A stretch of DNA of 64,000 nt, from the NCBI GenBank assembly GCA_030220185.1, contig JASPKZ010007303.1:1178001-1242000 (forward strand), written 5' to 3'. Every line of letters starts with the position of its first letter. Position 1 is the stretch's first letter. The stretch is from Diploptera punctata. Its lineage: Eukaryota > Arthropoda > Insecta > Blattodea > Blaberidae. A model generated the notes under the pieces. It made no database searches. It was not told the origin of the DNA and worked only from the letters and a program-made list of their open reading frames with translations. This document shows, one piece after another, positions 4,452 to 63,085 of the stretch. Position numbers and translations under genes: made by a program.

Positions 4452-4695
4452 ATTTAATTAATGTTGGGAAGTAAACATTATGAGGTATAATCATTAAAAT
4501 TCATCGGAGAACATATTGTTTAAACAACTCACCTCATAGGATTCATGCTTCCATGATATCGCGATTTCAAACATAGTCATGTTCATTGAGTCGGAGTTAT
4601 GGCTGACGATGAACATGACTATGTTTGAAATCGCGATATCATGGAAGCATGAATCCTATGAGGTGAGTTGTTTAAACAATATGTTCTCCGATGAA
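4452..4695 (-). mobile_element. PLE foldback copy with 12-bp target duplication
   Basis: Tail at the left (GGGAAGTAAACATTATGAGG), hairpin to the right; TCTTTTCTATAT is duplicated at 4440-4451 and 4696-4707. It lies in the last intron of the unidentified host gene. Both arms hold hammerhead sequence; the right-hand one is complete on the + strand. Confidence 0.85.
4598..4643 (+). ncRNA. type I hammerhead ribozyme, complete core
   Basis: Helix I TATGG/TCATG; core CTGACGA at 4603-4609; helix II GAACAT-GACT-ATGTTT after one unpaired T; GAAA at 4627-4630; helix III A-T and T-A around loop CGCG; cleavage predicted after the ATA ending at 4638. ATCGCGAT around helix III is self-complementary. Helix III is only two pairs, as in minimal PLE hammerheads, so activity may need dimer formation. 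Confidence 0.75.
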
Positions 4696-4904
4696 TCTTT
4701 TCTATATCTTATTATTTAGTGAACATATTTTGTTTAGTAAAAAATGGGCTAAGGTTATTAGATAATAAGTATAAGTTAAAAATAGGAATTGAACCTCTAA
4801 CATGTGCTTTCAAAACACAGCACTTTCTAAGATTTAACTTTACTTAATTAAATTATCTCATTATTTTGATAATTTAGTTAGCCATTGTCAACCTAGAATG
4901 TATT

Positions 4905-5230
4905 GATTTATATTTGAAGAGAAAAATTTTCGCCTAGACCGAGACTCGAACCCGGGACCTTTGGCTTGCCGGGCCAAATGCTCTACCAACTGAGCTACCG
5001 TAGTGTTAAATTCCCAATAAATGTCTTCTTAACTAAGAAGCCGCCATTTGCAAAGATAGAAGCAAAGTATGATGATCTTGCAGAAGATTTCCGGGCTGTT
5101 GGCTGTGGTCTTGAGGCTTGTAGTTCCCCAATGTTTCGCCGGATGCAGTCACTGGCAAAACGTTGGGGAACTACAAGCCTCAAGACCATGGCCAACAGCC
5201 CGGAAATCTTCTGCAAGATCATCATAGTAA
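4905..5230 (-). mobile_element. tRNA-like arm joined to a long hairpin
   Basis: A minus-strand tRNA-like block occupies 4932-5004, with diverged ends and the same GAGAAAAATTT border as other copies. It is followed by TTCCCAATAA, AAGCCGCCATTTGCAA and a hairpin whose arms lie at about 5070-5132 and 5159-5225. The order tail motif, leader, tRNA matches 16600-16910 and 22570-22830. No target duplication seen. Confidence 0.6.
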
Positions 5231-5508
5231 CTCCAGCCGTGAAAGCCTAAGTCAGTATAATAGAAGCAAAGGTTTCAAAGCCTCATTAGGACCAGCAGCA
5301 TCAAACAACATACTGGATGCTGTAGCGAAGAATGAACTGCTGAAGATGGGACGGATGTCCTGAAAGGCCTACAGGCATAAAGATTACATATTTTAAAAGT
5401 TGAGGATGACGGATTTTACCTAAGAAGGTATTTTAACTTATTTTATTTTATGACTCTCCACCTCAACGGTTTTTAACAATGAATTTTATTAGTATTAAAA
5501 ATAGCTAT

Positions 5509-6237: not shown

Positions 6238-6276
6238 GATTGGAATTGTAAATCAATGGTAAAGAGAAAAATTTTT

Positions 6277-6349
6277 GCCTGAACCGGGAATCGAACCCCG
6301 AACCTTTAGCTTTCCGTGCTAATGCTCAGACCACTGAGCTAATCCAGGC
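6277..6349 (-). other. tRNA-like sequence, left arm of family 2 foldback
   Basis: Inverted twin of 7052-7124, with only minor differences. Intact A and B boxes; a T-run lies just downstream on the minus strand. Repeat-borne, not counted as a tRNA gene. Confidence 0.7.
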
Positions 6350-6593
6350 TTCATTTCCATCCAAGCAAGAATCCTTCCTTTACCTTTACTCTACTGGCCC
6401 CACATTCAATTACAATGAATCATCATTCACAAATACACAATGAATGGCTTCTACCTGAAGAAGACATTAATTTAATAAATAATGCTATAGCTGTGTGGAG
6501 TCCCTTCATGTCTTCTTCAGGTAGAAGCCATTCAGTGTGTATTTGTGAATGATGATTCATTGCAATTGAATGTGGGGCCAGTAGAGTAAAGGT

Positions 6594-7006: not shown

Positions 7007-7051
7007 GTAGAGTAAAGGTAAAGGAAGGATTCTTGCTTGGATGGAAATGAA

Positions 7052-7124
7052 GCCTGGATTAGCTCAGTGGTCTGAGCATTAGCACGGAAAGCTAAAGGTT
7101 CGGGGTTCGATTCCCGGTTCAGGC
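7052..7124 (+). other. tRNA-like sequence, right arm of family 2 foldback
   Basis: Acceptor GCCTGGA/TTCAGGC pairs over 7 bp; D-arm GCTCAGTGGTCTGAGC; anticodon stem TTAGC/GCTAA around ACGGAAA (GGA at 34-36, C instead of T at 33); T-loop TTCGATT. AAAATTTTTCTC follows, so a polymerase III terminator is in place. Structure is well preserved, but a decoding role is unlikely. Confidence 0.7.
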
Positions 7125-7225
7125 AAAAATTTTTCTCTTTACCATTGATTTACAATAATTTAATTGTGTTTATTAATTTACTTATTTCTATCATAGGAAT
7201 AGCTTTAGCTTCCCAATATTAATTT

Positions 7226-7464
7226 AATAAAGATTGGAATTTTCAGAACCTAAGAGAAAAATCTCAATAAATATCTCTTTCAATTGCATTGGTAAAATAA
7301 ATTGTTTCTACTGAAAGTTAACATTTTGACTAGAAATGCTGTTAAGCAAATTATACAAATTATACAAATTAATAATTTAAATAGGAAGTAACATTATGTA
7401 GTTCTTAATAAATAAGGTGCATCTGATTCATCTTAACCTTGTAATAAATTGACATGTTTCAATA
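7226..7464. other. no feature recognised
   Basis: AT-rich sequence between two insertions. Fragments such as AGGAAGTAACATTATG near 7381 suggest an old PLE tail on the minus strand. Confidence 0.3.
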
Positions 7465-7620
7465 CAAGATTAAATTAAAATGTTTCATACCTCACCTCAT
7501 ATCCAGTCCTTGGCTTTGAAACTGCAGTCTACTTAGAAGACTGGATATGAGGTGAGGTATGAAGCATTTTAATTTAATCCTAAATTAAACCTCATAGTGA
7601 TTTTTTCCTATAAAAGTTCA
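7465..7620 (+). mobile_element. short PLE foldback with 11-bp target duplication
   Basis: Hairpin arms share CATACCTCACCTCATATCCAG; the tail on the right has ACCTCATAGTG and TTTTTTCCTA. ATGTTTCAATA is duplicated at 7454-7464 and 7621-7631. GAAAC-TGCA-GTC-TACT is present, so helix III (ACTGCAGT) and the cleavage site survive, but the CTGANGA side has been lost at the hairpin centre. Confidence 0.8.
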
Positions 7621-8163
7621 ATGTTTCAATATGTTGTCCATACCATCGTCAGCTTGTTCTAAGCTTATGATTTTTATGTTGTTGGCCCTGGATGTCATCT
7701 CCCACTCCATCCTCTGGTTGACCGAAGAACTGGTTGGTTGGGGTCTAATGTGCTGCATCTAACACTGAAGTCATTAGCAGTCTTGCTCTCCAGTACTTTG
7801 AAGTTTTGGAAGTTTCCTCTTTGATGGCTGCACAGTTGTTGTGGTGTTCATCATCCATTTCTTCTTCTGGGTGGTTGCATAGAATGCATCTTGGTGTAGG
7901 CAATATGTTGATCTTGTGCAAGTGTTCAGCAAGGCAAGCGTGTCCTATAGTTAATCTGAATTGTGCAACTGCTGTCTTACGTGGAAGTTCTGGTATGATG
8001 TTTGTGTTTTGAAGGAGGCTTTTCTATTTCTTATCTTTTGTGGACAATTGAAGTCTGTTATCATTTATATCCTTGGTTTTAAATTTTATGTGCCTTTTTG
8101 CTGAAATATAAGATATAGGAGAACATATTGTTTAAACAACTCACCTCATAGGATTCATGCTTC

Positions 8164-8209
8164 CATGATATCGCGATTTCAAACATAGTCATGTTCATCG
8201 TCAGCCATA
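8164..8209 (-). ncRNA. type I hammerhead ribozyme, inverted arm
   Basis: Minus-strand copy with every core element intact: TATGG, CTGACGA, helix II GAACAT/ATGTTT, GAAA, loop CGCG, ATA cleavage site, TCATG. It faces the + strand copy at 8648-8693 in the same element. Confidence 0.75.
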
Positions 8210-8372
8210 ACTCCGACTGACGAAATTCTTCGGCCGTCAACTATTCTATTGTCGCCATCTTCAGTGCTGCCATCTATGGTTGAATTTATGAACTTCGAAA
8301 TCAATGTAATTTCGTTAGGGATATCAAAATTCATTGATCTATTTTTGTTTTTCTGAATGTATGTTAATTTTT

Positions 8373-8678
8373 TGTGAAATTGAAAAATCTGCAATTGCTG
8401 CACATAGTTTATTAGAACATCATAAAATTGGAAGAGAAGCTAAACTTTTAAAACAAGTAGAGAAACCTTTGGAATTGACAGTTTGGGAAAAAATATACAT
8501 TCAGAAAAACAAAAATAGATCAATGAATTTTGATATCCCTAACGAAATTACATTGATTTTGAAGTTCATAAATTCAACCATAGATGGCAGCACTGAAGAT
8601 GGCAACAATAGAATAGTTGACGGCCGAAGAATTTCGTCAGTCGGATTTATGGCTGACGATGAACATGACTATGTTTGA
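8373..8678 (+). pseudogene. PLE GIY-YIG endonuclease, C-terminal fragment
   Basis: The open frame reads EIEKSAIAAHSLLEHHKIG, KLLKQVEKPLELTVWEKIYI, then a basic KNK and MNFDIPNE, ending at the stop that overlaps the hammerhead. The AAH..E.H, WEK.YI and N (LLN-like) residues match the second half of the GIY-YIG domain of Penelope-like proteins. The GIY-YIG motif itself and all reverse transcriptase motifs are missing, so this is a 5'-truncated copy. Related fragments lie at 13561-13774, 22960-23275, 39650-39880 and 41690-41850. Confidence 0.75.
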
Positions 8679-8693
8679 AATCGCGATATCATG
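8648..8693 (+). ncRNA. type I hammerhead ribozyme, complete core
   Basis: TATGG / CTGACGA (8653-8659) / helix II / GAAA (8677-8680) / loop CGCG / ATA ending 8688 / TCATG. Identical to the copies at 4598 and 8164 over the core. It overlaps the stop codon of the endonuclease ORF fragment. Confidence 0.78.
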
Positions 8694-9210
8694 GAAGCAT
8701 GAATCCTATGAGATGAGTTGTAAACAATATGTTCTCCGATGAATTTAATGATTATACCTCATAATGTTTACTTCCCAACATTAATTAAATATATAAGATA
8801 TAGGTTTGGATGTTGGTGATTGTGTTATCAGGGAACCTTTCTTCGCAAGGAGATCGGCTGCTTCATTTCCCAGGATTCCACAATGTGATGGAATCCACAG
8901 TAGCATGATTTCTTTGCCGTAGTTATGGGGTTGTAGTATCATGTCATAACATTGTTTAGAGTCGTGTGTGTTTGGGTGACGGATTGATTGAAGAGCTGCT
9001 TTTGAGTCTGACAGGAGAACTAATCTGGAGAAGTTATCTGATCTTGTTAAGAGGTTTTAAGTGATGTTTTTATAGCATAAATCTCACCGTTGAAATGTGT
9101 TGTTCTTCTTCCAGCATGACAGTAGAAAGAGAAGAGGGGGCACGTTCTTCCTGCACCAGCGCCATTTTCAGGATCTGATAGTGAGCCATCTGTATAGACA
9201 TGGAGTCATT

Positions 9211-9407
9211 AATAAATTAATGAGTCATTTTAACATCTTACCTCATATTTCCGGTAGTCATAATGGCGGTTGAAAATGAATGACAAGATCATTTGAAAAC
9301 TATAGTTACCGTGTTTGATAAAACATGAAATATGAGGTAAGATGTTAAAATGACTCATTAATTTATTAATTAAGAACCTCATAATGGTTTCCCAATTTTA
9401 ACTTTGA
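9211..9407 (+). mobile_element. PLE foldback copy with 11-bp duplication
   Basis: Hairpin arms contain ATCTTACCTCATATTTC / GAAATATGAGGTAAGAT; the tail on the right has ACCTCATAATGG and TTTCCC. ATGGAGTCATT (9200-9210) and ATGGAGCCATT (9408-9418) flank it with one mismatch. Inserted in the RNase H LINE. Confidence 0.8.
9266..9312 (+). ncRNA. hammerhead ribozyme relic
   Basis: Helix I GCGG/CCGT, core TTGAAAA (two changes from CTGANGA), helix II GAATGA/TCATTT, GAAA, and the palindrome AACTATAGTT leading to a TTA site. The fold is recognisable but the core is damaged. Confidence 0.45.
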
Positions 9408-9970: not shown

Positions 9971-11416
9971 TCATCATCATCATCATCATGAACAAATTCG
10001 TTTTAGGCCATGTGGCCTGTACGGTAAACCTAGCGAAGATGGTCTTGATCTTTCCACCGATGTTTTGGTCTTCCTTGGTCCCTATGTCCAGTTGGGGTAT
10101 ATTGGAATGCCAATTTTGGAAGTCTATTTCTTGCCATTCTTCTGAGATGATTTTTCCATTCTTGTTGGTATCTTTGGATATCTTCATTTAAACTTGCTAC
10201 TCCTAGTTTTCCTCTGATAGTAGTGTTCCTTTGGTGATCCAGTCTATTAACTCCTAACAATGATCGTAAGAAGCGCATTTGGCTTACTTGAAGTTTATGA
10301 GAGTTTCTTTTATTTAAAATCCAAATTTCACTTCCGTATTTTAGAGCAGCTTTTGATGTGACGTTATGTAATCTTAGTTTTGTCTCTGTCCTCATCTGTT
10401 TACCAAAATGTCTTCGTATTACCCCATTCATTTTATTATATTTTTGTAATTTTGAATCAATGTCACTCTTATACTCTGCAAATACACTTCCTAAGTAAGA
10501 GAAATCTGACACTTGTTCTATAATTTTTCCATCAATCTCAATTTTCACCCGTTGTATGTTTTTTCCACACATTGCCATTGTTTTGGATTTTGATGTGGAA
10601 ATTTTCATATTATATTTGCTGGCAATTTTGAATAATTGATATGCTGCTATTTGTAAGCTATCTTCGGAATCTGATAATATTATTTGATCATCAGCATATA
10701 ATATTGTTTGAATTATTTTATTCCTAGTTATTGAAATTCCACTGTTTACTGTTTGTTTCCATTCTTGCACTATTCTGTTAATATATATATTAAATAAGAG
10801 TGGAGATAGTCCACATCCTTGTCGAACACCTTTGCCTGTGTTTATGTGTTCTGTTATTTCTCCATCTGGTAATTTAATTTTGATTTTAGAATTTTGATAT
10901 AAGCTTTGTATGGCTCGTATTACTTGTGAGTGTATATGTTCTTCATGCAGTATCTGCCAAAGTTTATCTCGGTTTACATTATCATATGCCTTTTCATAAT
11001 CTATGAATAGTATGTACAGTGGGAGATTAAATTCTCTCCTTTTTTTTCCATAATTTGTTGCAGGGTAAATATTGCATCTATAGTGCTCCTCCCTTTTCTA
11101 AATCCACATTGTTCTTCTTCCAAAATGTTTCAGTACTTACTGATAACTTATTTTTAATTATGTTGGCATATAATTTAGATGCAGTTGGGAGTAAGGTAAT
11201 GCCTCGGTAGTTATCACATTTGTTTTTCTGACCTTTTTTATGTATATTAATTACTAGACCCGTTTCCCAATCCGTTGGAATATTAAGACAATGCCAAATA
11301 TTGTTAAAAAGTTCTAATAGTTTCTCTTTCAAGGCAGTTCCTCCATACTTAAAAAGTTCTAAATTTAAATCATCTAAACCTGGACTTTTCCTGTTCTTGG
11401 CCTTCTTTAAAACTTC
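9971..11416 (-). mobile_element. 5'-truncated LINE with (ATG)n tail, 14-bp duplication
   Basis: TTCTAATTATATCA is duplicated at 9957-9970 and 11417-11430. On the minus strand the reverse transcriptase can be followed through one frame break: KNRKSPGLDDLNLELFKYGG, NYRGITLLPTASKLYANIIK, LFIDYEKAYDNVN, GVRQGCGLSPLLFNIYIN, LYADDQIILS, then the C-terminal segment ending in GRPKHRWKD. The catalytic motif is YADD. The endonuclease domain is missing. The tail is an ATGATG repeat. Same broad type as 54300-55345. Confidence 0.8.
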
Positions 11417-11609
11417 TTCTAATTATATCAGTATCTAATTATATCTAATTATATCAGTTTCAAAACTTATGTTGTTTCATCTTCAGTAATATCTCAACCG
11501 ATGTTATGTTGTTTAGGAAAACTGCTTCTTACTCCCTCTGTTGGTGGACTGATGAACCTCTGAATTTGATCAATTCTGAAGATATTACTGAAGCTGAAAC
11601 CACATAGAT

Positions 11610-12664: not shown

Positions 12665-12862
12665 TAATTAAAATTACAGGAAACACTATGAGGTATTTAC
12701 ATTAATGAATGAGTTGGAGAAAATGCTTTAATATCTCACTTCATAAAGTTGCGTGTCTTGATACCGGTTTCAAAAGTATAGTATTACTTCTATCTTCAGT
12801 CAAATTCCAACTCATGAGGTTATGAGGTGAGATGTTAAAGCATTTTCTCCAACTCATTCATT
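12665..12862 (-). mobile_element. PLE foldback copy with about 13-bp duplication
   Basis: Tail at left (AGGAAACACTATGAGG), hairpin arms with GAGTTGGAGAAAATGC. ATATTATTTGGAT flanks the left and ATATTATTTTGGAT the right, one base longer. A second copy with internal loss is at 23510-23665. Confidence 0.7.
12757..12804 (-). ncRNA. type I hammerhead ribozyme, complete core
   Basis: Minus strand: helix I TTTGA/TCAAG (five pairs), core CTGAAGA (complement of 12793-12799), one unpaired T, helix II AGAAGTA/TACTTTT (seven pairs), GAAA, helix III on the palindrome ACCGGT, cleavage after GTA. One of the best-preserved copies by base-pairing. Confidence 0.78.
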
Positions 12863-13257
12863 AATATTATTTTGGATATTTATTTTTCTTTATCTGGTAA
12901 TTTTAATATTTTAAATTATTTGTATTATTATTATTTTTGTTTTTGTTTTACATCTTAATATAATTTATGGTTGTATCTTAATGAAGTAATGGGTATTGTA
13001 CTTTTTTTTAGGTCGCTGCATTGGCCAAATGGGTTCCTGGTCTTTTAGTTACTAATAATTGTGGAACACTTTTGAAAGAAAATTAAAAATGGGAGAAATG
13101 AGACTACATGAATCTTAAAATTAACAAAAAAAAGGTTCATTAATAGTTATGAGTAGAGATCCGTGAAAGTGGTTTCATTTTTAGGGAAAATTCATTTTAA
13201 AATTTCAAGATTTCGATGTTATTGGGAATTTGGCGGTGTTATTTTAAAAAAATGTAA

Positions 13258-14056
13258 ATTTTTTGGCTAGACCTATGGTAGTGAAGCATGGACACTAAAA
13301 AGACAATATGAAAGCAGAATAACGGCTTATGAAATGAGATTCATGCGCAGAACAGCAGGTTACACCAGATGGGATCGGAAAAGAAACACTGATATATTAA
13401 AAGAATTGAAGACTACGCCAATTTTGGAATATATTAAACAGTACTAACTAATATTTGAGTTTGTATTTTTTAACATTCTTACCTCATATGTTTATTTTGT
13501 TGGACGATTGTTTCAAAGCTCATGTTTGGACAGAGAAACACAAAATAGATATAAATACAAAATTATTAAAACAGTTGAAAATGCCAATGCCCTCACAATG
13601 TGGGAAAAAATCTATATACATAAGAACAAGGAGAAAATTATGAACTTTGAAATTCCTGGAGAAAGGAGCCTCATTACCAAGTTCTTTGGAACACAGATCC
13701 AGGGCCGACAACTTGAAGAAAAGAAAAAACCAGTTTGTGAACAAGCTGAAAATGAAGCAATAGCTTTGAAATGATCGTCCAACTAAATAAACATATGAGG
13801 TAAGAATGTTAAAAAATACAAACTCAAATATTAAATGAAACCTCATAATGTAACTTCCTAATGATTTTAAAAAAAGTACCAACTAAATTGGAAACACCAT
13901 CTTGAAAGAATGTGTTCAAATCGGATCCCCAAAGCTGTTTATAATTATATACCAAGAGGATGAAGATCTCTGGGCCGTCCTATGAAACGCTGGAGGGAAA
14001 ATTTTCTATAGGATTTAACAGCATTGGCTAATACTTGGAAGGAAGAAGAAGAATGT
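13258..14056 (+). mobile_element. LINE 3' end split by a PLE
   Basis: The halves 13258-13451 and 13875-14056 join to give YGSEAWTLKRQYESRITAYEM, KRNTDILKELKTTPILEYIK, then the NWKHHLERMCSNRIPK segment and a GAAGAAGAAG tail. Matches 50766-51326 and the minus-strand copy at 54300-55345. Confidence 0.75.
13452..13874 (+). mobile_element. PLE with ORF remnant, 12-bp duplication, inside a LINE
   Basis: AGTACTAACTAA / AGTACCAACTAA flank it (13440-13451, 13875-13886); the unbroken target is seen in the LINE copy near 51150. The + strand frame reads TMWEKIYIHKNKEKIMNFEI and continues through RSLITKFFGT. The right-hand hammerhead at 13746-13780 has CTGAAAA in place of CTGANGA; the inverted left arm keeps GAAAC-AATC-GTC. 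Confidence 0.85.
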
Positions 14057-15832: not shown

Positions 15833-16069
15833 TATATTTAAATTAATATTGGGAAGTAAACATTATGAGGTTATATCATTAATAGTGAGTGTAGAATATA
15901 TTTTTAATGACTCACCTCATATGATCTAAAATTTCTTTGATACCGGCGGTTTCAGACTATCTTGTCCATGACTGAAGAGGGACAAGATATTGTCTGAAAC
16001 CGCCGGTATGAAAGAAATTTGAAATCATATGAGGTGATTCGTTACAAATATATTCTACACTCACTATTA
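15833..16069 (-). mobile_element. PLE foldback copy with 12-bp duplication
   Basis: ATAAAAATGAGT at 15821-15832 and 16070-16081. Tail at the left (GGGAAGTAAACATTATGAGG); hairpin with ACCTCATATGATC arms and a hammerhead on the + strand arm. Confidence 0.85.
15969..16011 (+). ncRNA. type I hammerhead ribozyme
   Basis: Core CTGAAGA (15972-15978), helix II GGACAA/TTGTCT with loop GATA, GAAA (15996-15999), helix III on ACC...GGT, cleavage after GTA (16008). Helix I is TGA/TCA in the opposite arm but TGA/TGA here, so this arm has one damaging change. Confidence 0.62.
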
Positions 16070-16075
16070 ATAAAA

Positions 16076-16910: not shown

Positions 16911-17545
16911 ACATACTATGGTACATACCATAGCTAAAAAAAAAGTGCATTGGTGCACTGAAAAAGTAACTTTTTTATGCTTAAATGGCTTAAGCAGTTT
17001 AAACTATAACAAATACACCAAATTAATGTACACAGAATAGATTATCTAAAAACATTTTTACAAAAAAAGTCCATGACAGCATAGTTAATCTTTTATGGAT
17101 AACTCAAAATAACCATTTTTGTCTTTTAGCTCATTGATGTCAAGAAGATCAGGGTTAGTAGATTCTCGGGCAATGTGGGGTATCTAAAAATAATTAAGAT
17201 ATACATTTATAATTTTTTTCTTTTTACTTATTCAACTAATATAAAATTATAGAATATTCACCTGAAAGGTCCGTCTCCTCAACTTAATTAATCATTTAAC
17301 TGTAGTGCTTTCGTGCCGATGATGGGACAAGTCCCGAAAGCGCTACAGTTAAATGATTAATTAAGTTGAGGAGACGGACCTTTCAGGTGAATATTCTATA
17401 ATTTTATATTAATCTTGAATAAACCTCAACGGAACACATCATGAATATTATAAAAGTTGATTATTCAACTAAACATAAAAACATAATTTATTTAGGCGTA
17501 CCAGCGCATACCAGTTGTTAGCTAGTTTGTTATATAATAATGATA
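16911..17545 (-). repeat. dispersed repeat 'Q', split by a PLE
   Basis: The minus strand shares the GGTGTATTTGTTATGG, TTTAGGCAGCGTAAGCC-like and TGATGTCAAGAAGAT segments with 58940-61110. The PLE at 17240-17460 splits it; 17473-17545 holds the continuing end (TTAGGCGTACCAGCGC). Confidence 0.6.
17240..17460 (+). mobile_element. PLE foldback, CCTCAACGG-tail family, 12-bp duplication
   Basis: TTATTCAACTAA at 17228-17239 and 17461-17472. Arms contain TCCGTCTCCTCAACTTAATT; the tail is ACCTCAACGGAACACATC, different from the main families. CCGATGA at 17316 and GAAAG-CG-CTA follow, but helix I is broken in this copy. Confidence 0.85.
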
Positions 17546-18238: not shown

Positions 18239-19305
18239 AAATGACTATTTAACTCATGCCCCAAATGGGACTCAATGGCCAATCACGTTTCAATGATTTC
18301 TGTTTTACAACCAATCAGAGTCGTGTTTCACGAAATATTTATCAGTGTTATAATTACCATATTAAAGAAAGCTCCTCCTTTTTAATATTCTGAACAGGTC
18401 TGACCATTATTTTGCAGTGACTGAGCCTGCGAGAAATACGGCTACCATATTGTATATATAGTGCATGAATGTCAACACATGCCGCATGCGGGAGTTAATA
18501 TAAAAACATTTGTAGCAATTGATTATACCACCAAAAAAAGAAACCACTGTTTGCACTTTCTTAAATGTATTTTTTCCCAGGTAACAATCCAGAAAAATAT
18601 AATTGTCATATTTACATCATACGACGTCAGAAATGAATTAATATACAGTTTGATGTGTTTAATTTTTTCTCCACTAGGGAGCATTCTTACAATATTGCGT
18701 TCCTTTGGCAATAAATAGTATGATCTGGTTGCAGTGATGAACAAAAAAAGCAGATGAAGCGTACCTATCGCTTCTCATTTGTTTTCAAACATCGCCGTTT
18801 ACATTAAATATATAAATATTTTAAAATAAAGGTAAAGGTAAAGTGATCCCACAACAGGCCTCAGGAGGCCCTTGGGGTAGTAGGAGGTTAAGGCTCCCAC
18901 TTTTTCTAGACAATCGGCACTTTATGTCAGCTGGGTTGTCAGCCCTGCGTGACGGCCGCCTTTACCCCAGAACAAGCGTCTGGCACTCATTTCAGTTAGA
19001 GGCTGAGTCGACCCCAGGGCCACAGTGCCGCCAGAGGGTTTGGGTCAGTTTAAAAATCCTGACCCCAACGGGACTTGAACCCTCGACCCTCCGGCTTGTA
19101 GCTCAGTGCCTTAACCACTACGCTATGGCGTGCCAAATAACTATAGTTAAATAATGATTTGTGAGTAAACAGCTTAATTTTATTCGTTAAATAGTCCTAA
19201 CAAATGCCATTCTTGATTTCCAAATTCTCTAGATAAATTCACTCGTCACTTCGTGAGTCGTGAATTTATCGATAATTTGGAAATCACTTGTGATATTACT
19301 TATGA
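18239..19305 (+). mobile_element. N1 repeat, second copy, carrying a SINE
   Basis: Aligns along its length with 2937-3700, including the terminal palindrome at 19208-19300. The extra 300 bp is the SINE at 18834-19135. Confidence 0.75.
18834..19135 (-). mobile_element. tRNA-headed SINE with (ACCTTT)n tail
   Basis: Minus strand begins GGCACGCCATAGCGTAGTGG, with A box AGCGTAGTGGTTAAGG and B box GGTTCAAGTCC, then a 200-bp body and a CTTTACCTTTACCTTT end. AAATAA is repeated on both sides. The empty site is visible in the first N1 copy near 3525. An older copy lies at 42165-42440. Confidence 0.8.
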
Positions 19306-19354
19306 AAATTTAAATTGTACATTTAATTTACAATTTATTAGTGTAGTAATAATT

Positions 19355-20200: not shown

Positions 20201-20206
20201 TTTAAT

Positions 20207-20425
20207 TTTTAATGAGTTGGATATTTTGATTCACCTCATATTTCTTGATTTTTATGCAGACGTAGGTTTTGTCGCTTTTGCGTGACATTGTCGATGCTTC
20301 CAACTGTCATGCAAAAGCAACGAAACCTAGGTCTGTATAAAAATCAAGAAATATGAGGTGAGTCAAAATATCCAACTCATTAATAATTAAAAGAAACCTC
20401 ATAGTGTTATTTCCTACATATATTA
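20207..20425 (+). mobile_element. PLE foldback copy (TTTCTTG family)
   Basis: Arms share CTCATATTTCTTG; right-hand tail ACCTCATAGTG and TTATTTCCTA. GAAACC-TA-GGTC is intact and ACCTAGGT is a palindrome, but the CTGANGA core is not recognisable (TCGACAA in its place). A longer copy lies at 41546-41870. No duplication found. Confidence 0.7.
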
Positions 20426-22569: not shown

Positions 22570-23285
22570 TTATCATATTTGAAGAGAAAATTATACACTC
22601 AAACTGGGGTTTGAACCCAGGAGCTTTTGCACTCTAGTCAAATGCTCTACCAACTGAGCTACCTGAAAAACTCCAATCTAAATGCAAATCTTTACCTTAT
22701 ATATGCTGTTAATCCCGTGCAGTGAATGCTATGAAGCCATTGCTTCTATCTTGCAAATGATTGGGAATTTTACATTACATTATAAAGCGAGTATGGCTTC
22801 TTTCAATGTCTTTCTTTAATTTTATCATCTCACCTCACATTCTTCTTCTTCTTAGACCAGTATTTTCACAACTGTCGTTTTGTCGTCTTAAAGAGCTACC
22901 CCCTGCTCCCTCTGTTGGTCAAATGAAGAACCTCAAAATCAAATAATTTTCCGTTTGAATTTCAAAGTTCATTAATTTCTCCTTTCCATTTTTTGAATGT
23001 AGATTTTTTTTCCCAAACCATGAGTTTTTTTTTTGGTTTTTCTATTTGTTTTAATAATCTAGTCTTTCTTTTGATAAGATGTTTTTCTGACATGCATGGG
23101 CTGCTACTGCAGATTTTTCTACTTCCACATTCTGGACATTCCTGAGATGTTCTTTCATACTGGTTTTTAAATTTGTCTTTGTTTTCCCTATGTAGACTTT
23201 TTCGCATTCTCTGCATTTAATCTGATAAATCCCTGATTTGTTTTCTTCTTCTGTTTTCTCATTTATTGGATCTAATTAATCTAAC
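22570..23285 (-). mobile_element. PLE followed by a tRNA-like unit
   Basis: Minus-strand order: GIY-YIG coding remnant (23275 to 22960), GAATGTGAGGTGAGATG near 22840, a tail GCTTTATAATGTAATG...TTCCC near 22755-22795, a leader with AACAGCATATATAAG, a tRNA-like block (22665 to 22596) and TTTTCTCTTCAAATAT. It links PLE tail and tRNA-like unit on one strand. Boundaries approximate; no duplication found. Confidence 0.6.
22960..23275 (-). pseudogene. PLE GIY-YIG endonuclease fragment with GIY and YIG motifs
   Basis: The minus strand reads KSGIYQIKCRECEKVYIGKT, the two defining GIY and YIG motifs with the Cys pair between them that is typical of Penelope-like proteins. EHLRN, then VEKSAVAAHAC follow, and after a frame break MVWEKK and MNFEI. 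It confirms that the shorter MNFEIP-type fragments elsewhere are PLE. Stops and frameshifts make it non-functional. Confidence 0.8.
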
Positions 23286-28101: not shown

Positions 28102-30504
28102 ATAACCATAGGAGATTTCAACAGCAAAGTGGGCCCACGCAGCCACGAGGATGAAGACCCAGTGGGAAGATATGGGTATGGGGCAAGAAATGAAAGAGGG
28201 GAAAAGCTCGTTCAATTCGCACAAGAACATAAACTAAAGATAGCCAACACCTTTTTTAAGAAAATGCCTAGCTCAAAGTGGACTTGGCGCTCGCCAGACG
28301 GCAACACAAAGAACGAAATTGACTACATCCTAAGCGATAACCAAAGAACCATAAGAGATATCCAAGTAGTAGCCAACCTGAAATTCAGTACAGACCACAG
28401 GATGGTGCGGGCAAAAATGAAGATAGAAAGAAGAAGGAAGCATCCAGCAAAGCAACATAGACAAAATATAGAAAACATAGACAGCAACAAATTCCAGCTA
28501 CATCTTCGCGACAGAATTGCAGAGTCCAACCCCAACCGAGAAGCAGGTGCTCAGGAACTGTACAACTCCCTGGAACAATGTATACTACAGGCGACCAAGG
28601 ACTCCAGCAAAAATACGAAAGCTCAGAAAGAAGGCAAACTCAGTCAAGGAACCATTGCCTTAATCGAACGTCGATCGGAGATGCTACAAACCAGAGACGC
28701 TTCGGAGTCGAATAGAACCGCAATGGACAAACTGACGAAAAAGGAAATACGGAAAGATCTGCGAGAGTACCGCACAACCATAACTAGGCAAATAATAGAA
28801 ACCTCCAAATCGATAAGGAAAGCAAAGAGGGAAAGAAATGGTGACAAACAATGGATGCTAGGAATTAAGAACCAAGCAGGAGGCCGCAACACATTAAGAA
28901 CAGATATAATCCAGTCAGCCACAGATTTCTATAAATCCCTATATACAAGCTCCCTAACAACCCAGGCAACAAATCACATAGGCATATTCGATGCTAAACT
29001 CGAAAACCACGCCGACACCTTTCCCCCAGTACTGGCCAGCGAAATTAGAACTGCAATAGATGAAATGAAAAATGGCAAAACACCCGGAGAGGATGGAATA
29101 TACAACGAATTGCTAAAACTGGCTTCAGATCAAATACTACCATCACTCACAAACATCTTTAACAAAATTCTGCAGACAGAAGAGATACCCGAGCAATGGA
29201 AATCAAGCACAATCATTCTTCTCCACAAGAAAGGCACAAAAGATGACATGAATAATTACCGACCCATAAGCCTGATGTCCAATCTATACAAACTATTTTC
29301 AAAAGTGCTAACAAGAAGACTAACAAAAGTCCTGGACGAAAACCAGCCAACAGAACAAGCCGGATTCCGCTCAGGCTTTAGTACAACAGACCATCTCCAA
29401 GCAATTAACCAAATAATAGAAAAGACAGTCGAATACCACCATACATTATATCTAGCATTCGTCGACTACAACAAGGCATTCGACTCAGTAGAACATTCAA
29501 GTGTCCTCCAGGCATTACACACCCAAGGAATCGAACACAAGTACATCCGCGTTCTGGATAAGATCTACAGCCAAAGCTATGCCAAGGTGAAGACAGAAAT
29601 TGTGGGACAACCATTCAGTCTCAAAAGAGGAGTACGACAAGGCGACCCAATTTCTCCTAAACTTTTTACATGCGTGCTTGAAGACATATTTCGAAAACTA
29701 AACTGGAACAAGAAATACGGAATAAATATAAACGGGAGCAGGCTATCCAACTTAAGATTTGCTGACGATGTGGTATTGTTCGCCAGATCCCCTAAACAAC
29801 TCCAATCAATGCTACAAGAGCTCTCAGAAACTAGCAAAATTGCAGGCCTTTCGATGAACAAAAGCAAGACACAAATTATGTCTAATGGTCCGGAAAACCT
29901 TATCAAAGTCGATGGAATGGATCTTCAATATGTAAGCGAGTACATATACTTAGGACAACTACTCTCCTTCCATCAGAAAGTAGAGAAGGAAATAAGCAGA
30001 AGAATAGCTCTCGCCTGGAAGGCGTTCTGGTCACTGAAATTTATACTGCTGGACAAGTCACTCAACCGGAAACTCAAAATGGAAACACTACAAACCTGTG
30101 TTCTTCCAACACTGTTATATGGCTGCCAAACTTGGAATCTTACTGCCAAACTGAAGTACACACTCCAAGTATGCCAAAGGAAAATGGAGAGGAAAATCTT
30201 AGGCATAACTCTGAAGGACAGAATCTCGAATACAACACTTCAAGCGATATCCTCAACAACTGATCCCGCACAACAAGCCATCAGGAAAAAATGGAAGTGG
30301 GGAGGCCACGTCGCAAGAATACAGGACGACAGGTGGACAATAAAAACAACCATGTGGGACCCGTACACAGGCAAGAGACAGCGCGGAAGACCAAGACGAC
30401 GATGGGCTGACATCTTCAAAGAACGAGCAGGGGCGCAATGGTCCAGAGTCGCCAGATGCAGGAAAAGCTGGAGAACGATGGAGAGCCAACTGTGTATTAA
30501 CTAA
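28102..30504 (+). CDS. RTE-type LINE polyprotein, 5'-truncated, frame intact
   Basis: The frame is open from the TAA at 28099 to 30504, about 800 codons with no internal stop. It begins inside the endonuclease (IGDFNSKVGP), with KNEIDYIL and STDHRMV, then reverse transcriptase blocks NYRPISLMSNLYKLFSKVL, EQAGFRSGFSTTDHLQ, LAFVDYNKAFDSVEH, GVRQGDPISPKLF and catalytic FADD at about residue 545, and the C-terminal WKWGGHVARIQDDRW and GRPRRRW. The layout fits the RTE clade. The first part of the endonuclease is absent, so it is dead on arrival, but the lack of stops suggests a young insertion. It lies in sense orientation in the SAYSD1 intron, and its base composition is less AT-rich than the flanks. 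Confidence 0.88.
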   Translation: MTIGDFNSKVGPRSHEDEDPVGRYGYGARNERGEKLVQFAQEHKLKIANTFFKKMPSSKWTWRSPDGNTKNEIDYILSDNQRTIRDIQVVANLKFSTDHRMVRAKMKIERRRKHPAKQHRQNIENIDSNKFQLHLRDRIAESNPNREAGAQELYNSLEQCILQATKDSSKNTKAQKEGKLSQGTIALIERRSEMLQTRDASESNRTAMDKLTKKEIRKDLREYRTTITRQIIETSKSIRKAKRERNGDKQWMLGIKNQAGGRNTLRTDIIQSATDFYKSLYTSSLTTQATNHIGIFDAKLENHADTFPPVLASEIRTAIDEMKNGKTPGEDGIYNELLKLASDQILPSLTNIFNKILQTEEIPEQWKSSTIILLHKKGTKDDMNNYRPISLMSNLYKLFSKVLTRRLTKVLDENQPTEQAGFRSGFSTTDHLQAINQIIEKTVEYHHTLYLAFVDYNKAFDSVEHSSVLQALHTQGIEHKYIRVLDKIYSQSYAKVKTEIVGQPFSLKRGVRQGDPISPKLFTCVLEDIFRKLNWNKKYGININGSRLSNLRFADDVVLFARSPKQLQSMLQELSETSKIAGLSMNKSKTQIMSNGPENLIKVDGMDLQYVSEYIYLGQLLSFHQKVEKEISRRIALAWKAFWSLKFILLDKSLNRKLKMETLQTCVLPTLLYGCQTWNLTAKLKYTLQVCQRKMERKILGITLKDRISNTTLQAISSTTDPAQQAIRKKWKWGGHVARIQDDRWTIKTTMWDPYTGKRQRGRPRRRWADIFKERAGAQWSRVARCRKSWRTMESQLCIN

Positions 30505-35543: not shown

Positions 35544-35954
35544 ATTTTAAAAATACAATAAGAAGTAACATTAAGAGTTTTGTTCAATAATTAAAACATT
35601 TTGTCTGTTCATTATTACCTCTTAGAGTTTTTTTTGTCGAACATATGTTTCAGAGCTTCTTGAATTTTCTCATGTTGTTGGCCCTGATTCTTGATTCCTG
35701 CTCTCTTTGTCTCTGGTCCAAAAAATCTATATACAGAAGAACAAGGAAAAAATTATGAACTTTTAAATTCCTGCAGAAAGGAACCTCGTTAGTAAATTCA
35801 TTAGACCAGAGACAAAGAGAGCAGGAATCAAGATCAGGGCTGACAACATGAGAAAACTCAGTCTGTAATCGCTGACGATGGGTTAAGAAGCTCTGAAACA
35901 TATGTTCGACAAAAACAACTCTGAAGTAAGAATGAACAGACAAAATGTTTTAAT
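35544..35954 (+). mobile_element. inner PLE of the nest, 12-bp duplication
   Basis: TGTTTCATACCT at 35532-35543 and 35955-35966. Inverted arms surround a short remnant of the endonuclease ORF. Same family as 226-506 and 13452-13874. Confidence 0.8.
35869..35909 (+). ncRNA. type I hammerhead ribozyme
   Basis: Helix I TCG/CGA, core CTGACGA (35872-35878), weak helix II, GAAA (35895-35898), helix III C-ATAT-G on the palindrome ACATATGT, site GTT. Weak helix II and a GTT site make this a less certain ribozyme. Confidence 0.55.
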
Positions 35955-36086
35955 TGTTTCATACCTCTCCTCATATTAATCTTCTAAGTAATTTCTGCGA
36001 TTCTGATCCAGAGGTTTATCGGTCCACCAACAGAGGGAAGAAGAAGAAGTGGTTCTTCTGATCGACATAACATCAGTTGGCAAGAT

Positions 36087-36131
36087 GGTACTGACGATGG
36101 GTTTGCCATGAATCCGAAATTGCGATCTACT
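36087..36131 (+). ncRNA. type I hammerhead ribozyme, best-preserved copy
   Basis: Helix I GGTA/TACT; core CTGACGA 36091-36097; one unpaired T; helix II GGGTT/AATCC (one G-T); GAAA 36116-36119; helix III A-T, T-A around TGCG; cleavage predicted after ATC ending at 36127. Every universally conserved core residue is present. Confidence 0.82.
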
Positions 36132-36397
36132 TAGAAGATTAATATGAGGAGAGGTATGAAACATTTGATTTTATCTTACATTAATCCTCATAGTGATTTG
36201 TTCCTATAAAAGTTCAATTATAAGGTATAATCATTGAAATTCATTGGAGAACATTTTTTGACAACTCACCTACTAAATTTTGTGTTTTTCACGATACCGC
36301 AATTTCAAACGTAATCGTGATCATCTTCAGCCACAACTCCAACTGATGAAATTCTTCGGCCGTCAACTCTTCTATTGTTACCATCATCCTCTGGTCC

Positions 36398-41545: not shown

Positions 41546-41870
41546 TTTATTTTAATTATTAATGAATTGGTTATTTTCACTCACCTCATATTTCTTGTTT
41601 TTTATGCAGACCAGGTTTCGTCGCATTTGTACGACATTGTCGATGTATTCCAACTGTTGTGTTGCAGTTGTCTATCCTCTAGGTTGATTTCTACTCCCTC
41701 TGCTGGCTGACTGATGATCTTCCATATCAAATGTTTTTTCTTTTTCTCCAGGAATTTCAAAATTCATGATTTTCTTCTTATTCTTGCAGATGTAAATTTT
41801 TTCCCAAATTGTGAGTTCTTTAGATTTTTCTAACTGTTTTAGTAACTCTTTAATAACCAACTCATTAATA
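41546..41870 (-). mobile_element. PLE with ORF remnant (TTTCTTG family)
   Basis: Minus strand ORF LLKQLEKSKEL, TIWEKIYICKNKKKIMNFEI, then the hammerhead region (GAAACC-TG-GTC, with the CTGANGA side again TCGACAA as at 20207), then GAAATATGAGGTGAG-type arm. Near 41855-41875 CCAACTCATTAATAATTAA resembles an inverted arm. Confidence 0.7.
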
Positions 41871-41879
41871 ATTAAGATA

Positions 41880-41975
41880 TTTGGTCTGTGTATTCTTGCC
41901 TCTTATGTTTTTTTTTTTTTGTTGAACATATGTTTCAAGGCTTCTGAGCCTCATCTTCAGCTTTTACAGATTATA
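41880..41975 (-). mobile_element. PLE 3' fragment with hammerhead
   Basis: Minus strand hammerhead followed by ACATAAGAGGCAAGAATACA, matching the family of 226-506. The terminal tail is missing. Confidence 0.6.
41921..41962 (-). ncRNA. hammerhead ribozyme, intact core, weak helix I
   Basis: CTGAAGA (complement of 41954-41960), unpaired T, helix II GAGGCT/AGCCTT, GAAA, helix III on ACATATGT with loop ATAT, site GTT followed by CAAC. Only one or two pairs of helix I can form. Confidence 0.55.
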
Positions 41976-42452: not shown

Positions 42453-42703
42453 TTTTTTAATAAGAATTAAATAAATCGTGATTATTTCTTACCTCATACT
42501 TCTATGTTCCTTTAAACACAGCACTGCAGTATGGACGACTCCTTGTCACCATCGTCAGCTGTTTTCATGAGAAGGAGTCGCCGATACTGCAGTGCTGTGT
42601 TTAAAGGAACATAGAAGTATGAGGTAAGAAATCAATCACAATTTATTTAATTCCTATGAATTGAACCTCATAATGTTAAAAATTCCCAAATTTAATATAT
42701 AAA
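42453..42703 (+). mobile_element. PLE foldback copy with 12-bp duplication
   Basis: TATCTATCTTTT at 42441-42452 and 42704-42715. Long arms with TTCCTTTAAACACAGCACTG, tail ACCTCATAATG and TTCCC. ACTGCAGT is present but GAAA reads GATA and the site GTG, so the hammerhead is inactive. Confidence 0.85.
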
Positions 42704-45545: not shown

Positions 45546-45955
45546 GAAAGTTGTATAAAATTATCCATATTTAGGTTATTCTTCCATTTTGTCTCCATTA
45601 TTCCATAAGTCCTAATTGCTGAAATAAAATTTAAAATAGGCATATCAATCGTTAGAAGCATAGCCATTTAATAGGCAATAAATACAAAAATGACCTTATT
45701 TTTAAAAGTCCATGATAAAGGATAGATGAGTTGTAAAACTCAAGGATTTAAATATATTAACAGCATCCATAGTCTAATTTTATGTACCATCTGCTTCTTT
45801 TAATGATAGAGTTCTTAGTTTTCGGCGAGTTTCAAGAACTGGCAAGTTGTCAGTTTTCGTTTTACCTTCAAAACATTGTTATTTAACCTTTTTTTTATGA
45901 TTCAAAACATAGTCATTTGACCTAGCTTTACATTCCATTTAATTCTGTATTCGCT
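45546..45955. other. no feature recognised
   Basis: AT-rich spacer. Confidence 0.4.
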
Positions 45956-45958
45956 TAA

Positions 45959-46065
45959 GGGCCAGTTTCACCAAGAGAGGTAACTGTATTACGCCAGTTT
46001 AAGCTATGCATTATACATGGGGAAAACTGGCGTAATACAGTTACCTCTCTTGGTGAAACTGGCCC
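45959..46065. mobile_element. 107-bp Harbinger-type MITE
   Basis: GGGCCAGTTTCACCAAGAGA and its inverted copy extend about 43 bp on each side of a short loop, flanked by TAA (45956-45958, 46066-46068). Termini and TAA duplication fit PIF/Harbinger. Confidence 0.75.
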
Positions 46066-46187
46066 TAAATATTTTACCGCAACTAAAATCAGAGATTTCA
46101 ACCGTAGATATTTTAAAATGGATTTTTTTACAATTGACAGGTATAATAGTAAAAACGCACAATTTATTGTAGAAGTATATAAATAAC

Positions 46188-47402: not shown

Positions 47403-49412
47403 TAGCTTTATTTTACCTGGCAGAGTTAAGGCCTTAAGGCCTTGTCTACCACTCAACCAGGTTTAAAAAAATACAAACAAAAAAAAGTAGTCTTAAATCT
47501 AAATTACAATATATATAATTATATAAACGATTACAAGTTATGAATACAATACAATTAATATTTATAATGCATTTTGATTTACTCTAACTTTAACGAATTA
47601 AATATATAATATGTACAATATATATAAAAAAACGAGGAAAAGATTAATGACATAGTATAAAATTAAATAAATAGAGAAAAATTAATTATTAGACAACAGG
47701 TAACTGTATAAGCGTGGCTTAAAGGTACCAAGTGTGCGGCAACCCCTGATATCTTGAGGAAGGAGATTCCAGGAGCGGGCAGAGGCTACTGTGAATGAAG
47801 TAGAATAGGAGGAAGTGCTATGAAGAGGAATTGTTAGCAGACTGCTATCTTGTGATCTAGTGTCAATATTGTGGTAAGAGGATAACTTCTCAAATCTGGA
47901 CGCCAGGTAAGTAGGGATGTAGGAATTCAGAAGCTTGAAAAGTAGTGAAAGAGAGTGCAATTTACGTCTGTCAGTAAGACGGAGCCAAGAGAGGTTATTA
48001 AAGTGTTCGGAAATATGGTCATAACGGCGGATATTGAAAATGAATCGAACGCAAGCATTATGAACACGCTGCAGTCTCTGCGACAAGTCATAGTTTAGAT
48101 CATTATATATAATGTCACAATAATCGAAGTGTGGTAACACAAGATTCTGCACAAGGATTTGTTTGAACGAAACTGGGAGAAAATTCTTTAAACGTCAAAG
48201 ATAATGTAAGATGGGGAAAGTCTTTTACATATGTGTTTCACTTGTGTTTGCCAGGTTAAATTTGCGTCTAGATGTAGTCCAAGATCTATTACTGAAGAAG
48301 AATAAGGGCTAATTATATTATTTATAGTAATGTTTGGAAGTGTAGATATGTCAAAGGTTGTAAGCAGTTTTTGTTGTACCATTAGAATTACTTGTGACTT
48401 GTTAGGATTTAGATTTAGACCGATACTTGAAGACCAGTTAAAGATGGATATGAGATCGTCATTCATTTTTGTCTAGCTGTTATAGAGAGAATTAGGAGGT
48501 GAATGTAGGTAAATTTGGAGATCATCAGCGTAGAGGTGATAACGGCAGTGCTTTAGTACAGTTGGCAAGTCATTTATGTAGATTGAGAAAAGAAGAGGTC
48601 CGAGGACACTGCCCTGGGGGACTCCAGCCGGCACGTTGCGCCAAGAAGAAGATCTAGAGTTTAATGAAACGTATTGTTGACGACCGTGCAGGTATGATTC
48701 GAACCAGGATACAGCGCTGTCAGACAAGTGTAGGTGCTTGAGCTTTATCATAAGTAAGTCGTGGTCTACTGTGTCAAAAGCTTTGCTGAAGTCAAGTAAG
48801 GTTAAAGAAGTCAATTGACGTCTGTCCACGGCTTCACGAATATCTTCAGTAATTTTTAGCAAAGCTGTGGTTGTGCTATGACCATATCTAAAGCCGGATT
48901 GATAAGGATCAAGGAGGTGATTTTCTTGGAGATATTCAGTCATTTGCTTATGTACAATATGTTCCAGGGCTTTAGATAATGTCGGTAGGATGCTAATCGG
49001 TCGGTAGTCATTACAGTTAGTTGGTGTACTTATTTTTGGTATAGGCCGAACTCTAGACTGTTTCCATACAGTAGGGAAGATAGAAGTTATAAGGGAAGCA
49101 TTAAAAATATGAGTCACTGTGGGTAGTATAATGTCAATGATTTTATTTAGCATTAAAATGCTGATGTTATCTGTTCCTTGTGCATTGGATTTAATCCGCT
49201 TGAGTTCTTTTTTAACGTCTATAGGCGAAATATCGTTAAAGTAAAATTTATCTCTTCCTATATGGGGGGATGGGGATAAGTCTTTAAGAATGTCTATTTT
49301 AGTCTTGTTGTCTGGAGGTGTCATGGGTATTGAGGTAAAATGTTCATTTAAGTCATCTACAGAAATGTCTATAGAGTCAGTTGAGGGATCAACTGTCTAA
49401 GTCCCATTGCAC
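47403..49412 (-). pseudogene. CR1-like LINE, reverse transcriptase nearly complete
   Basis: Minus strand ORFs of 283, 92 and 156 codons join across two breaks near 48470 and 48185. The first carries RVRPIPKISTPTNCNDYRPI, YQSGFRYGHSTTTALLKI, LTLLDFSKAFDTVDHDLL, GVPQGSVLGPLLFSIYIND and catalytic YADD. The last ends NLLPQDIRGCRTLGTF.. and the 3' end is (ATT)n. The endonuclease is missing (5' truncation near 49412). GAGTAAGTAA-type repeat flanks both sides. Confidence 0.88.
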
Positions 49413-62292: not shown

Positions 62293-62568
62293 ACAAACAG
62301 TTGGCATTGGACAAAAAATATATATACGTAAATAAACTTTTATAAAATTCATGATGTGTTCCGTTGAGGTATTATTCAAAATTAAAATATAAAATTATGG
62401 AATATTCACCTGAAAGGTCCGCCTCCTCAAGTTAATTAATTATTTAACTGTAGCGCTTTCTGGACTTGTCCCATCATCGGCAGGATTCAAAACTGGTGTT
62501 TCACTGAAGATCTGGTAGAGGGGGTTACATGTATTGGGTTAGTTTTCGTTTATCAGATTGTCGTTGTT

Positions 62569-62787
62569 GTGATAAACGTACTCGAAGAGATGGAAATCAC
62601 GAAAGCAGCTCACAACAACGACAATCTGATAAACGAAAACGAACCCAATACATGTAACCCCCTCTACCAGATCATCAGTGAAACACCAGTTTTGAATCCT
62701 GCCGATGATGGGACAAGTCCCGAAAGCGCTACAGTTAAATCATTAATTAAGTTGAGGAGACGGACCTTCCAGGTGAATATTCCATAA
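62569..62787 (+). pseudogene. PLE endonuclease C-terminus
   Basis: LEEMEITKAAHNNDNLINEN then NPLYQIISETP: the L..LEE.EI.K...N.LN and NPLY segment that ends GIY-YIG domains of Penelope-like proteins. 5'-truncated. Confidence 0.6.
62699..62734 (+). ncRNA. hammerhead ribozyme with CCGATGA core
   Basis: Helix I CTG/CAG, CCGATGA (62702-62708; T-to-C at the second core base), unpaired T, helix II GGGAC/GTCCC, GAAA, helix III on AGCGCT, site CTA. The same core change is in the copy at 17316, so it is a family trait, not a chance mutation. Confidence 0.55.
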
Positions 62788-63085
62788 TTGTATATTTTAA
62801 TTATAAATAATTAAAACATTCAAATAAAGTTCAGTTCATTTAAATTGCAGTGATTTGTTTCGTATAATGTATATTAACATTACCTTTCGGATATTTTTTG
62901 TATATACATTGCACGTAGTATACAAGAGGGCAGTGGTTATTACTTCCCGCACGTGGGTGTACATGTAATATTACAGTATAGTTATTTAGGTTGGCAATCC
63001 TGAAATGTAGGAAGTTGAACTTTCAATCATGGCCGCCATTGCTGTAAGTATGACAAAACGCACTATCGCGCAAAAAATTCTTTGC

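Follow-up and report, generated by a model that had tools for sequence, protein, structure and literature searches.

Hammerhead motifs in the window

The window (the whole stretch of DNA analysed, 64 kb in length) harbors hammerhead ribozyme motifs on both strands, pieces of an endonuclease open reading frame (ORF) and inverted repeats, in copies whose sequence looks like that of Penelope-like elements (Table 1). The motif at 36087-36131, read as a hammerhead from the sequence alone, indeed contains all parts of a minimal type I ribozyme in the expected order: helix I formed by GGTA (36087-36090) and TACT (36128-36131), the core CTGACGA (36091-36097) followed by an extra U (36098), helix II GGGTTT/GAATCC (36099-36104 paired with 36110-36115), GAA (36116-36118), helix III ATTGCGAT (36119-36126) and C17 (36127), with the cut predicted after the latter. 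This helix III, which includes one G-U pair, is absent from the seven palindromes that the sequence-only reading had listed. Three further sites that it had named, 4598, 8648 and 12757, proved to be real, the last one lying on the minus strand.

A strict descriptor scan of both strands revealed five complete sites (4603+, 8204-, 8653+, 12799- and 36091+), three of which are copies of one family; the figure of at least ten sites with the full order, claimed earlier, is reached on generous criteria only. When one core mismatch was tolerated, 60 dinucleotide shuffles yielded a mean of 0.08 sites (maximum 1); with the core required to be exact, they yielded none. A covariance model, R1, built from six copies and treating helix III as unpaired, gave 22 matches at E<0.1 (rough E-values, obtained without a shuffled control), namely the six training rows and 16 others; seven of the latter closely resemble training rows, and nine represent other subfamilies. 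The Rfam hammerhead models returned no match at the gathering threshold, at E<=10 across the window, or on slices of 68 and 76 bases. The sequence-only reading had itself named a lack of significant covariance hits as grounds for its rejection, and taken literally this is what Rfam gives, whereas the six-copy model recovers the 16 non-training sites. We take the silence of Rfam as a limit of its models for forms lacking a helix III loop, and in our view the custom model and the pair covariation outweigh it. Chance or a compositional artefact, to which the Rfam result and the shortness of each piece of the motif might point, is highly improbable in view of the shuffle controls and of the recurrence of the motif, in several families, with the same endonuclease C-terminus in front of it and the same donor-like sequence behind.

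In total, 26 sites were examined and 20 of them, one per subfamily, were kept for the pairing and palindrome tests; since the subfamilies are related, these do not amount to 20 independent events. Six near copies (8653, 8204, 613, 23636, 62480 and 17316) were dropped from the 20-site set, sites without a usable core (7521, 20288 and 4548, for example) were not included, and an eight-family mixed alignment (A4) was excluded, its helix III being misaligned. Among the 20 representatives, the core is exactly CTGANGA in 11, GAA stands at its assigned place in 16 and both occur together in 10; the remaining cores are CTGAAGT, CCGATGA, TTGAGGA, CTGAAAA, TTGAAAA (three sites) and TCGACAA (two sites). 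Thus only the better copies carry a type I hammerhead core.

Table 1. Positions of hammerhead sites, coding remnants and fold-back copies in the window
Feature	Position	Strand	Remarks
Hammerhead copy, helix III ATCGCGAT	603-657	+	E 1.8e-7; 5' strand of helix I lost at fold-back junction
Hammerhead-like, core TTGAAAA (U3-A8), A for G12, then AACTGCAGTT	1682-1738	-	E 7.1; blind phasing picked 9 nt, hence scored non-palindromic
Hammerhead, helix III ATCGCGAT	4594-4647	+	E 2.3e-11; training row; ATG 4609-4611
Hammerhead, helix III AGGCCT	5332-5380	+	E 0.01; one pair swapped relative to AGCGCT
Hammerhead, helix III ATCGCGAT	8160-8213	-	E 2.3e-11; left arm of fold-back 8115-8740
Endonuclease ORF, C-terminal piece	8373-8675	+	...MNFDIPNEITLILKFINST...GFMADDEHDYV, through the core; TGA stop 8676-8678 uses G12 and A13
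Hammerhead, helix III ATCGCGAT	8644-8697	+	E 1.6e-10; overlaps end of endonuclease remnant 8373-8675
Hammerhead-like, core TTGAAAA (U3-A8), helix III AACTATAGTT	9261-9317	+	Absent from R1 matches
Hammerhead, helix III ACTGAT, incompletely paired	11443-11495	-	E 2.5e-8
Hammerhead, helix III ACCGGT	12753-12808	-	Training row; ATA replaces ATG
Endonuclease C-terminal remnant	13544-13771	+	Runs into hammerhead copy 13737-13788
Hammerhead copy entered by endonuclease remnant	13737-13788		E 0.0016
Further copy of AGCGCT hammerhead-like motif	17307-17354	+	
Hammerhead, helix III ACATATGT	35863-35915	+	Training row
Left inverted arm of fold-back	35952-35990	-	Right arm 36128-36166; 39 nt, 97%
Hammerhead motif, helix III ATTGCGAT	36087-36131	+	R1 50.7 bits; training row
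ATG (A9, extra U, G10.1)	36097-36099	+	Frame stops after 4 codons in this copy
Hammerhead, helix III ATTGCGGT (two G-U pairs)	36286-36339	-	E 1e-6; helix II partly broken
Hammerhead-like, core TCGACAA (U3-A8, C4), helix III ACCTGGT (odd length)	41600-41652	-	E 0.083
Endonuclease C-terminal remnant	41675-41881	-	
Hammerhead, ACATATGT after GAA	41916-41969	-	Training row; weak helix I, palindrome missed by blind phasing
Further copy of AGCGCT hammerhead-like motif	62442-62489	-	
Hammerhead-like, core CCGATGA (U4C), helix III AGCGCT	62693-62740	+	Training row
RVT_1 open frames	10033-11097 (-), 28102-30501 (+), 48473-49396 (-)		Not joined to Penelope-like endonuclease
Fold-backs 1-7	517-717, 4496-4699, 7458-7589, 8115-8740, 9208-9370, 12701-12865, 13449-13833		
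Fold-backs 8-14	15878-16071, 17228-17422, 20201-20391, 35566-35978, 35952-36166, 42457-42660, 62371-62811		

Helix pairing and core variation

A first exact descriptor lacking the extra U found zero sites, and it was from this that the additional core base was recognised. The order of CTGANGA and helix II proposed by the sequence-only reading recurs, but with a base between A9 and helix II that it had not mentioned and that is U in 19 of the 20 representatives. When this base is skipped, 95 of 100 cells of helix II are paired (first five pairs, 20 sites), compared with a mean of 62.3 after shuffling of the 3' strands (0 of 20,000 shuffles reached 95); without the skip, 19 of the 20 sites are left without any contiguous pair. 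In a six-row alignment (A3), pairing reached 84.2% of cells, whereas shuffled versions gave 66.5% (0/500) and slid ones 31.6-44.7%; the value for helix I by itself was 66.7%. The covariation of helix II is strong and that of helix I weaker.

The core pair 3-8 is C3-G8 in 13 of the 20 sites, U3-A8 in five, U3-G8 in one and C3-A8 in one. The five U3-A8 sites were judged to form about two lineages (9270, 1729 and 21285; 41643 and 20294), that is, few independent events, and 1729, 20294 and 21285 also have G12 changed to A, which makes their activity doubtful. Three D. punctata proteins (P0001, P0002 and P0009) end in VENE or VENERDPSLEN, an ending that could fit a U3-A8 core. No natural U3-A8 hammerhead was met in full-text literature searches, which were of incomplete coverage and did not query the term itself.

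Host element and fold-back copies

Two partial Diploptera punctata proteins match the endonuclease piece, one with 66% identity over 82% of the query and the other with 69% over 74%. Pfam found nothing above cut-off in three endonuclease pieces, the catalytic half being missing from the piece in the window; sub-cut-off Pfam matches (E 0.03-0.07) and a PDB match at E 3 were taken as chance. One of the two matching proteins, P0002, hits the GIY-YIG family PF01541 at E 7e-4 with 20.3 bits, under the cut-off of 22.6, and an alignment search retrieved 101 relatives, 21 of them with a precomputed PF01541 assignment. The piece is thus assigned as a putative GIY-YIG endonuclease through its homologues only. 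No relatives in viral contigs were confirmed. Among six of the seven frames of at least 140 aa no Penelope-type reverse transcriptase was found; three match RVT_1, none adjoins such an endonuclease, and they are probably remnants of non-LTR retrotransposons. Since the copies are 5'-truncated, a missing reverse transcriptase is to be expected, and no full-length element was found in the 64 kb. The hammerhead architecture, the Penelope-like host and the dimeric action put forward by the sequence-only reading are all supported at sequence level.

Inverted repeats are dense in the window, and inverted arms carry the hammerhead region as inverted pseudo-LTRs. By eye, 14 head-to-head fold-back Penelope-like copies were distinguished, holding 15 of the 26 sites. 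Folding of four of them gave -163.0 (4496-4699), -436.2, -77.0 and -321.4 kcal/mol, and a transcript of both arms would, on this modelling, form a long hairpin. Tandem pseudo-LTRs were not found, and arrays with a period of up to 500 cover no hammerhead site. By inspection, the fold-back junctions fall at varied points, from the endonuclease region past A9 to just before the donor-like site, and the idea that they mark the ribozyme cut was dropped for this reason. Other short hairpin repeats, free of hammerheads by inspection, lie at 5068-5226, 6382-6593, 45955-46069 and 19174-19326. Five Rfam tRNA matches (2100-2173, 4931-5004, 6277-6348, 7053-7124 and 22596-22668) are possibly tRNA-derived repeats, and a perfect 150-nt inverted repeat (6245-6394 / 7007-7156) encloses two of them.

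A start codon and overlapping ORFs in the core

A9, the extra U and the neighbouring G10.1 spell AUG in 17 of the 20 sites, which places a start codon inside the ribozyme core. In a second reading frame, the core is read as the codons (x)CT GAN GAT at the end of the endonuclease ORF; a stop of the kind seen behind the piece at 8373-8675 also occurs in the frames of 36330, 15972, 41960 and 341. From the AUG, a frame remains open and in phase for 17-18 codons up to a donor-like site in six of the 26 sites, belonging to three subfamilies, the closing sites being MNMTMFEIAISWKHESYE, MNMIMFEIAISWKHESYE, MGQTCFETYVQQKQPYE and MSRKSDKTYVCIKIKKYE; two of the six have AT instead of GT. The other 20 sites have stops, shifts, or no donor found with the pattern used. 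Splice-donor-like TATGAG/GTRAG sequences stand behind many hammerheads, for instance at 4657-4670 (GTGAG from 4663), and the pattern has 42 matches in the window, double counting included; the donor-like site perhaps opens a first intron. Of the homologue tails, 46 of 101 were inspected by eye, with no control, and eight carry a motif such as AED, ADD, TED or VEN at most 12 residues from the end, a count that omits P0073 and P0036. Full-text literature searches, incomplete in coverage, met no statement that a start codon owes its U to a base inserted in the core.

Further downstream, 14 of the 26 copies have a CCTCA element between +77 and +115 from A9, whereas 10% of random stretches of similar length contain one; by eye, the element at 35872 and 7652 is part of a neighbouring arm. 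In PAc, a Penelope-like element of Anolis, reverse transcription begins 111-118 bp into the ORF according to excerpts of PMC11167929, and by analogy CCTCA may or may not be the counterpart of this start.

Palindromic helix III

Helix III was phased blind, with the core and GAA fixed, the cleavage position set by helix I alone, and a helix III of 4-12 nt with G-U pairs allowed. The resulting interval proved fully self-complementary at 10 of the 20 sites, whereas among the alternative lengths at these sites 7 of 160 were (p 3e-7). The test is not wholly independent because some of the sites were first spotted through the earlier palindrome list. The corresponding figures are 6/10 against 2/80 for sites with exact core and GAA, 9/14 against 2/112 for those with a helix I score of at least 8, and 3/9 against 4/72 (p 0.03) for the non-training model matches, the other six of which are non-palindromic. 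Palindromes are therefore frequent, and helix III is reduced and palindromic in about half of the sites, but the cross-family rule claimed by the sequence-only reading does not hold. The palindromic sites are 4603, 36330, 12799, 36091, 62702, 5340, 35872, 9270, 41643 (odd length) and 42558; this last site, where CAT replaces GAA and base 17 is G, is unlikely to function judging from these bases. The 10 non-palindromic sites include some with a weak helix I (41960, 341 and 13746) and some with one broken pair (39907, 20294 and 11486). As for the seven palindromes listed before, ATCGCGAT, ACCGGT and ACATATGT do accompany an exact CTGANGA plus GAAA, and the other four do not: AACTATAGTT goes with TTGAAAA, AGCGCT with CCGATGA and a copy of ACCTAGGT with TTGTCGA, and the copies of ACTGCAGT are without core or without GAAA. 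AGGCCT at 5340 was missing from that list.

Among fits upstream of 30 donor-like anchors, 9 of the 30 best ones have a fully self-complementary helix III of at least 6 nt, and a good motif is missing at many anchors; the self-complementary share of all A...T stretches in the window is 15% at 6 bases, 7% at 8 and 3% at 10. Related families show coordinated changes of the palindrome, as in AACTATAGTT/AACTGCAGTT and AGCGCT/AGGCCT. Cofolding of nine RNAs, chosen with their palindromes known beforehand, gave the complete swapped double hammerhead as the best structure for two (9270 and 1729); in five the palindromes pair across strands within an incomplete hammerhead, and in two they do not pair across strands. 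Across the 36 pairs among nine palindromes, cross-pairing over more than four contiguous bases is confined to ATCGCGAT/ATTGCGAT (8 bp) and ATTGCGAT/ACTGCAGT (6 bp).

It is unlikely that the palindrome is a signal for RNA dimerisation, or a DNA-level feature of fold-backs, unrelated to cleavage. A self-complementary 6-10 mer could pair two RNAs with no catalysis needed, and several copies have a fold-back junction close by; however, in the palindromic sites the palindrome spans exactly the interval from GAA to base 17, as phased without using it, and the junctions are scattered.

A possible, if somewhat doubtful, alternative is that the motifs are ribozyme fossils, in which an ancestral hammerhead has lost cutting and is kept mainly by other constraints, namely the endonuclease C-terminus, the start codon and an RNA signal for the protein of the element. 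Consistent with this, nine of the 20 cores depart from CTGANGA and four sites are without GAA at its assigned place, three of these having A for G12; moreover, excerpts of PMC11167929 state that hammerhead mutants of PAc were without effect on insertion in vitro and that its minimal RNA lies within the first 172 nt of the ORF. Nevertheless, the pairing of helix II and the blind-phased palindromes exceed coding needs, and coding leaves the self-complementarity unexplained. The fossil reading is compatible with the explanation favoured below, and many copies in the window are probably inactive relics.

Proposed function

We consider it likely that the window contains minimal type I hammerheads in Penelope-like pseudo-LTRs, with helix III pairing between RNA copies and an ORF junction in the core. 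This explanation draws on the motif, the covariation of helix II, the extra U, the palindromes in about half of the sites, the overlap of ORFs and the kinship of the endonuclease, all evident at sequence level; from them we infer cleavage, dimerisation, tandem source elements and a role in the life cycle. Helices I and II would form in the usual way, and in the better preserved copies helix III would be a loopless palindrome of 6-10 nt, which can thus form a stable helix only between two RNA copies. The partners could be two molecules, or both pseudo-LTRs of one tandem transcript acting as a double hammerhead. In the source elements, the ribozyme would sit at the junction of two ORFs, where the endonuclease ORF of one unit ends and the ORF of the next unit would start within the ribozyme, because it is here that A9, the extra U and G10.1 make up an AUG. 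A cut 23-32 nt behind the A of this AUG would resolve tandem transcripts into units and part the start codon from its ORF.

More speculative, and rather improbable, is an abundance sensor, in which the start codon is built into the core and cutting requires a second RNA of the same family through the palindrome, in about two lineages with a U3-A8 core. If so, scarce RNA would stay whole and be translated, whereas abundant RNA would be paired, cut 23-32 nt behind the AUG and serve as a unit-length template, not as mRNA. Given the near orthogonality of the palindromes, each coexisting family would for the most part sense only its own RNA.

Comparison with known systems

Lunse, Weinberg and Breaker in 2017, and Cervera and De la Pena in 2014, reportedly described small hammerhead variants from Penelope-like elements, which cleave in dimeric form. 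The hammerheads in the window are a real set of this known kind. They share with the dimer-type Penelope hammerheads the minimal type I form, the diminished helix III, the Penelope-like host and the supposed dimeric action, as described in excerpts of PMC7761336, PMC6466107 and PMC6155905; what stands out here, relative to what these citing papers relate of them, is the extra U after A9 and the U3-A8 cores. The palindromic helix III, put forward by the sequence-only reading as its new point, is already in print together with dimeric action (PMC3088659, legend of Fig. S8; PMC6466107; PMC7761336, each as excerpted).

According to excerpts of PMC11167929, the ORF of PAc starts at stem II, with C3 and G8 upstream of the start codon and the cut 26 bp behind it, much as the ORF start at stem II and the predicted cut shortly behind the start codon are placed in the window. 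In the same excerpts the PAc hammerhead is protein-assisted, its RNA being uncut without the protein and no RNA-seq ends falling at the cut site; they describe stems I and II and loop II and, unlike the case here, do not mention a palindromic helix III. The repeat-type hammerheads of Aedes aegypti likewise have a palindromic stem III, which with loop III makes a 10-bp stem in the dimer, but in the context of the Fig. S8 legend of PMC3088659 no Penelope ORF is mentioned. Newt satellite and axolotl retrozyme hammerheads also have a weak helix III and cleave better as dimers, and axolotl Amex1 has a palindromic tetraloop; they differ in being tandem non-coding repeats with contacts between loops 1 and 2 (PMC7229834 and PMC6155905, in part). 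The Penelope insertions of Adineta vaga, as excerpted from PMC3846280, resemble the copies studied here in being 5'-truncated and flanked by inverted pLTRs. Finally, one viroid hammerhead has an additional A at the corresponding position of its core, and replacing this A by U raised trans-cleavage 3-4 fold (PMC3705267, in excerpt).

In our view, these systems cover less well the U3-A8 lineages and the way in which the start codon overlaps the core, and both are worth following. Numerous families whose palindromes differ occur together in this one window, along with natural U3-A8 cores and an added core U that doubles as the U of a start codon, and the RNAs of the window form a ready set for probing whether dimerisation, cleavage and translation are coupled.
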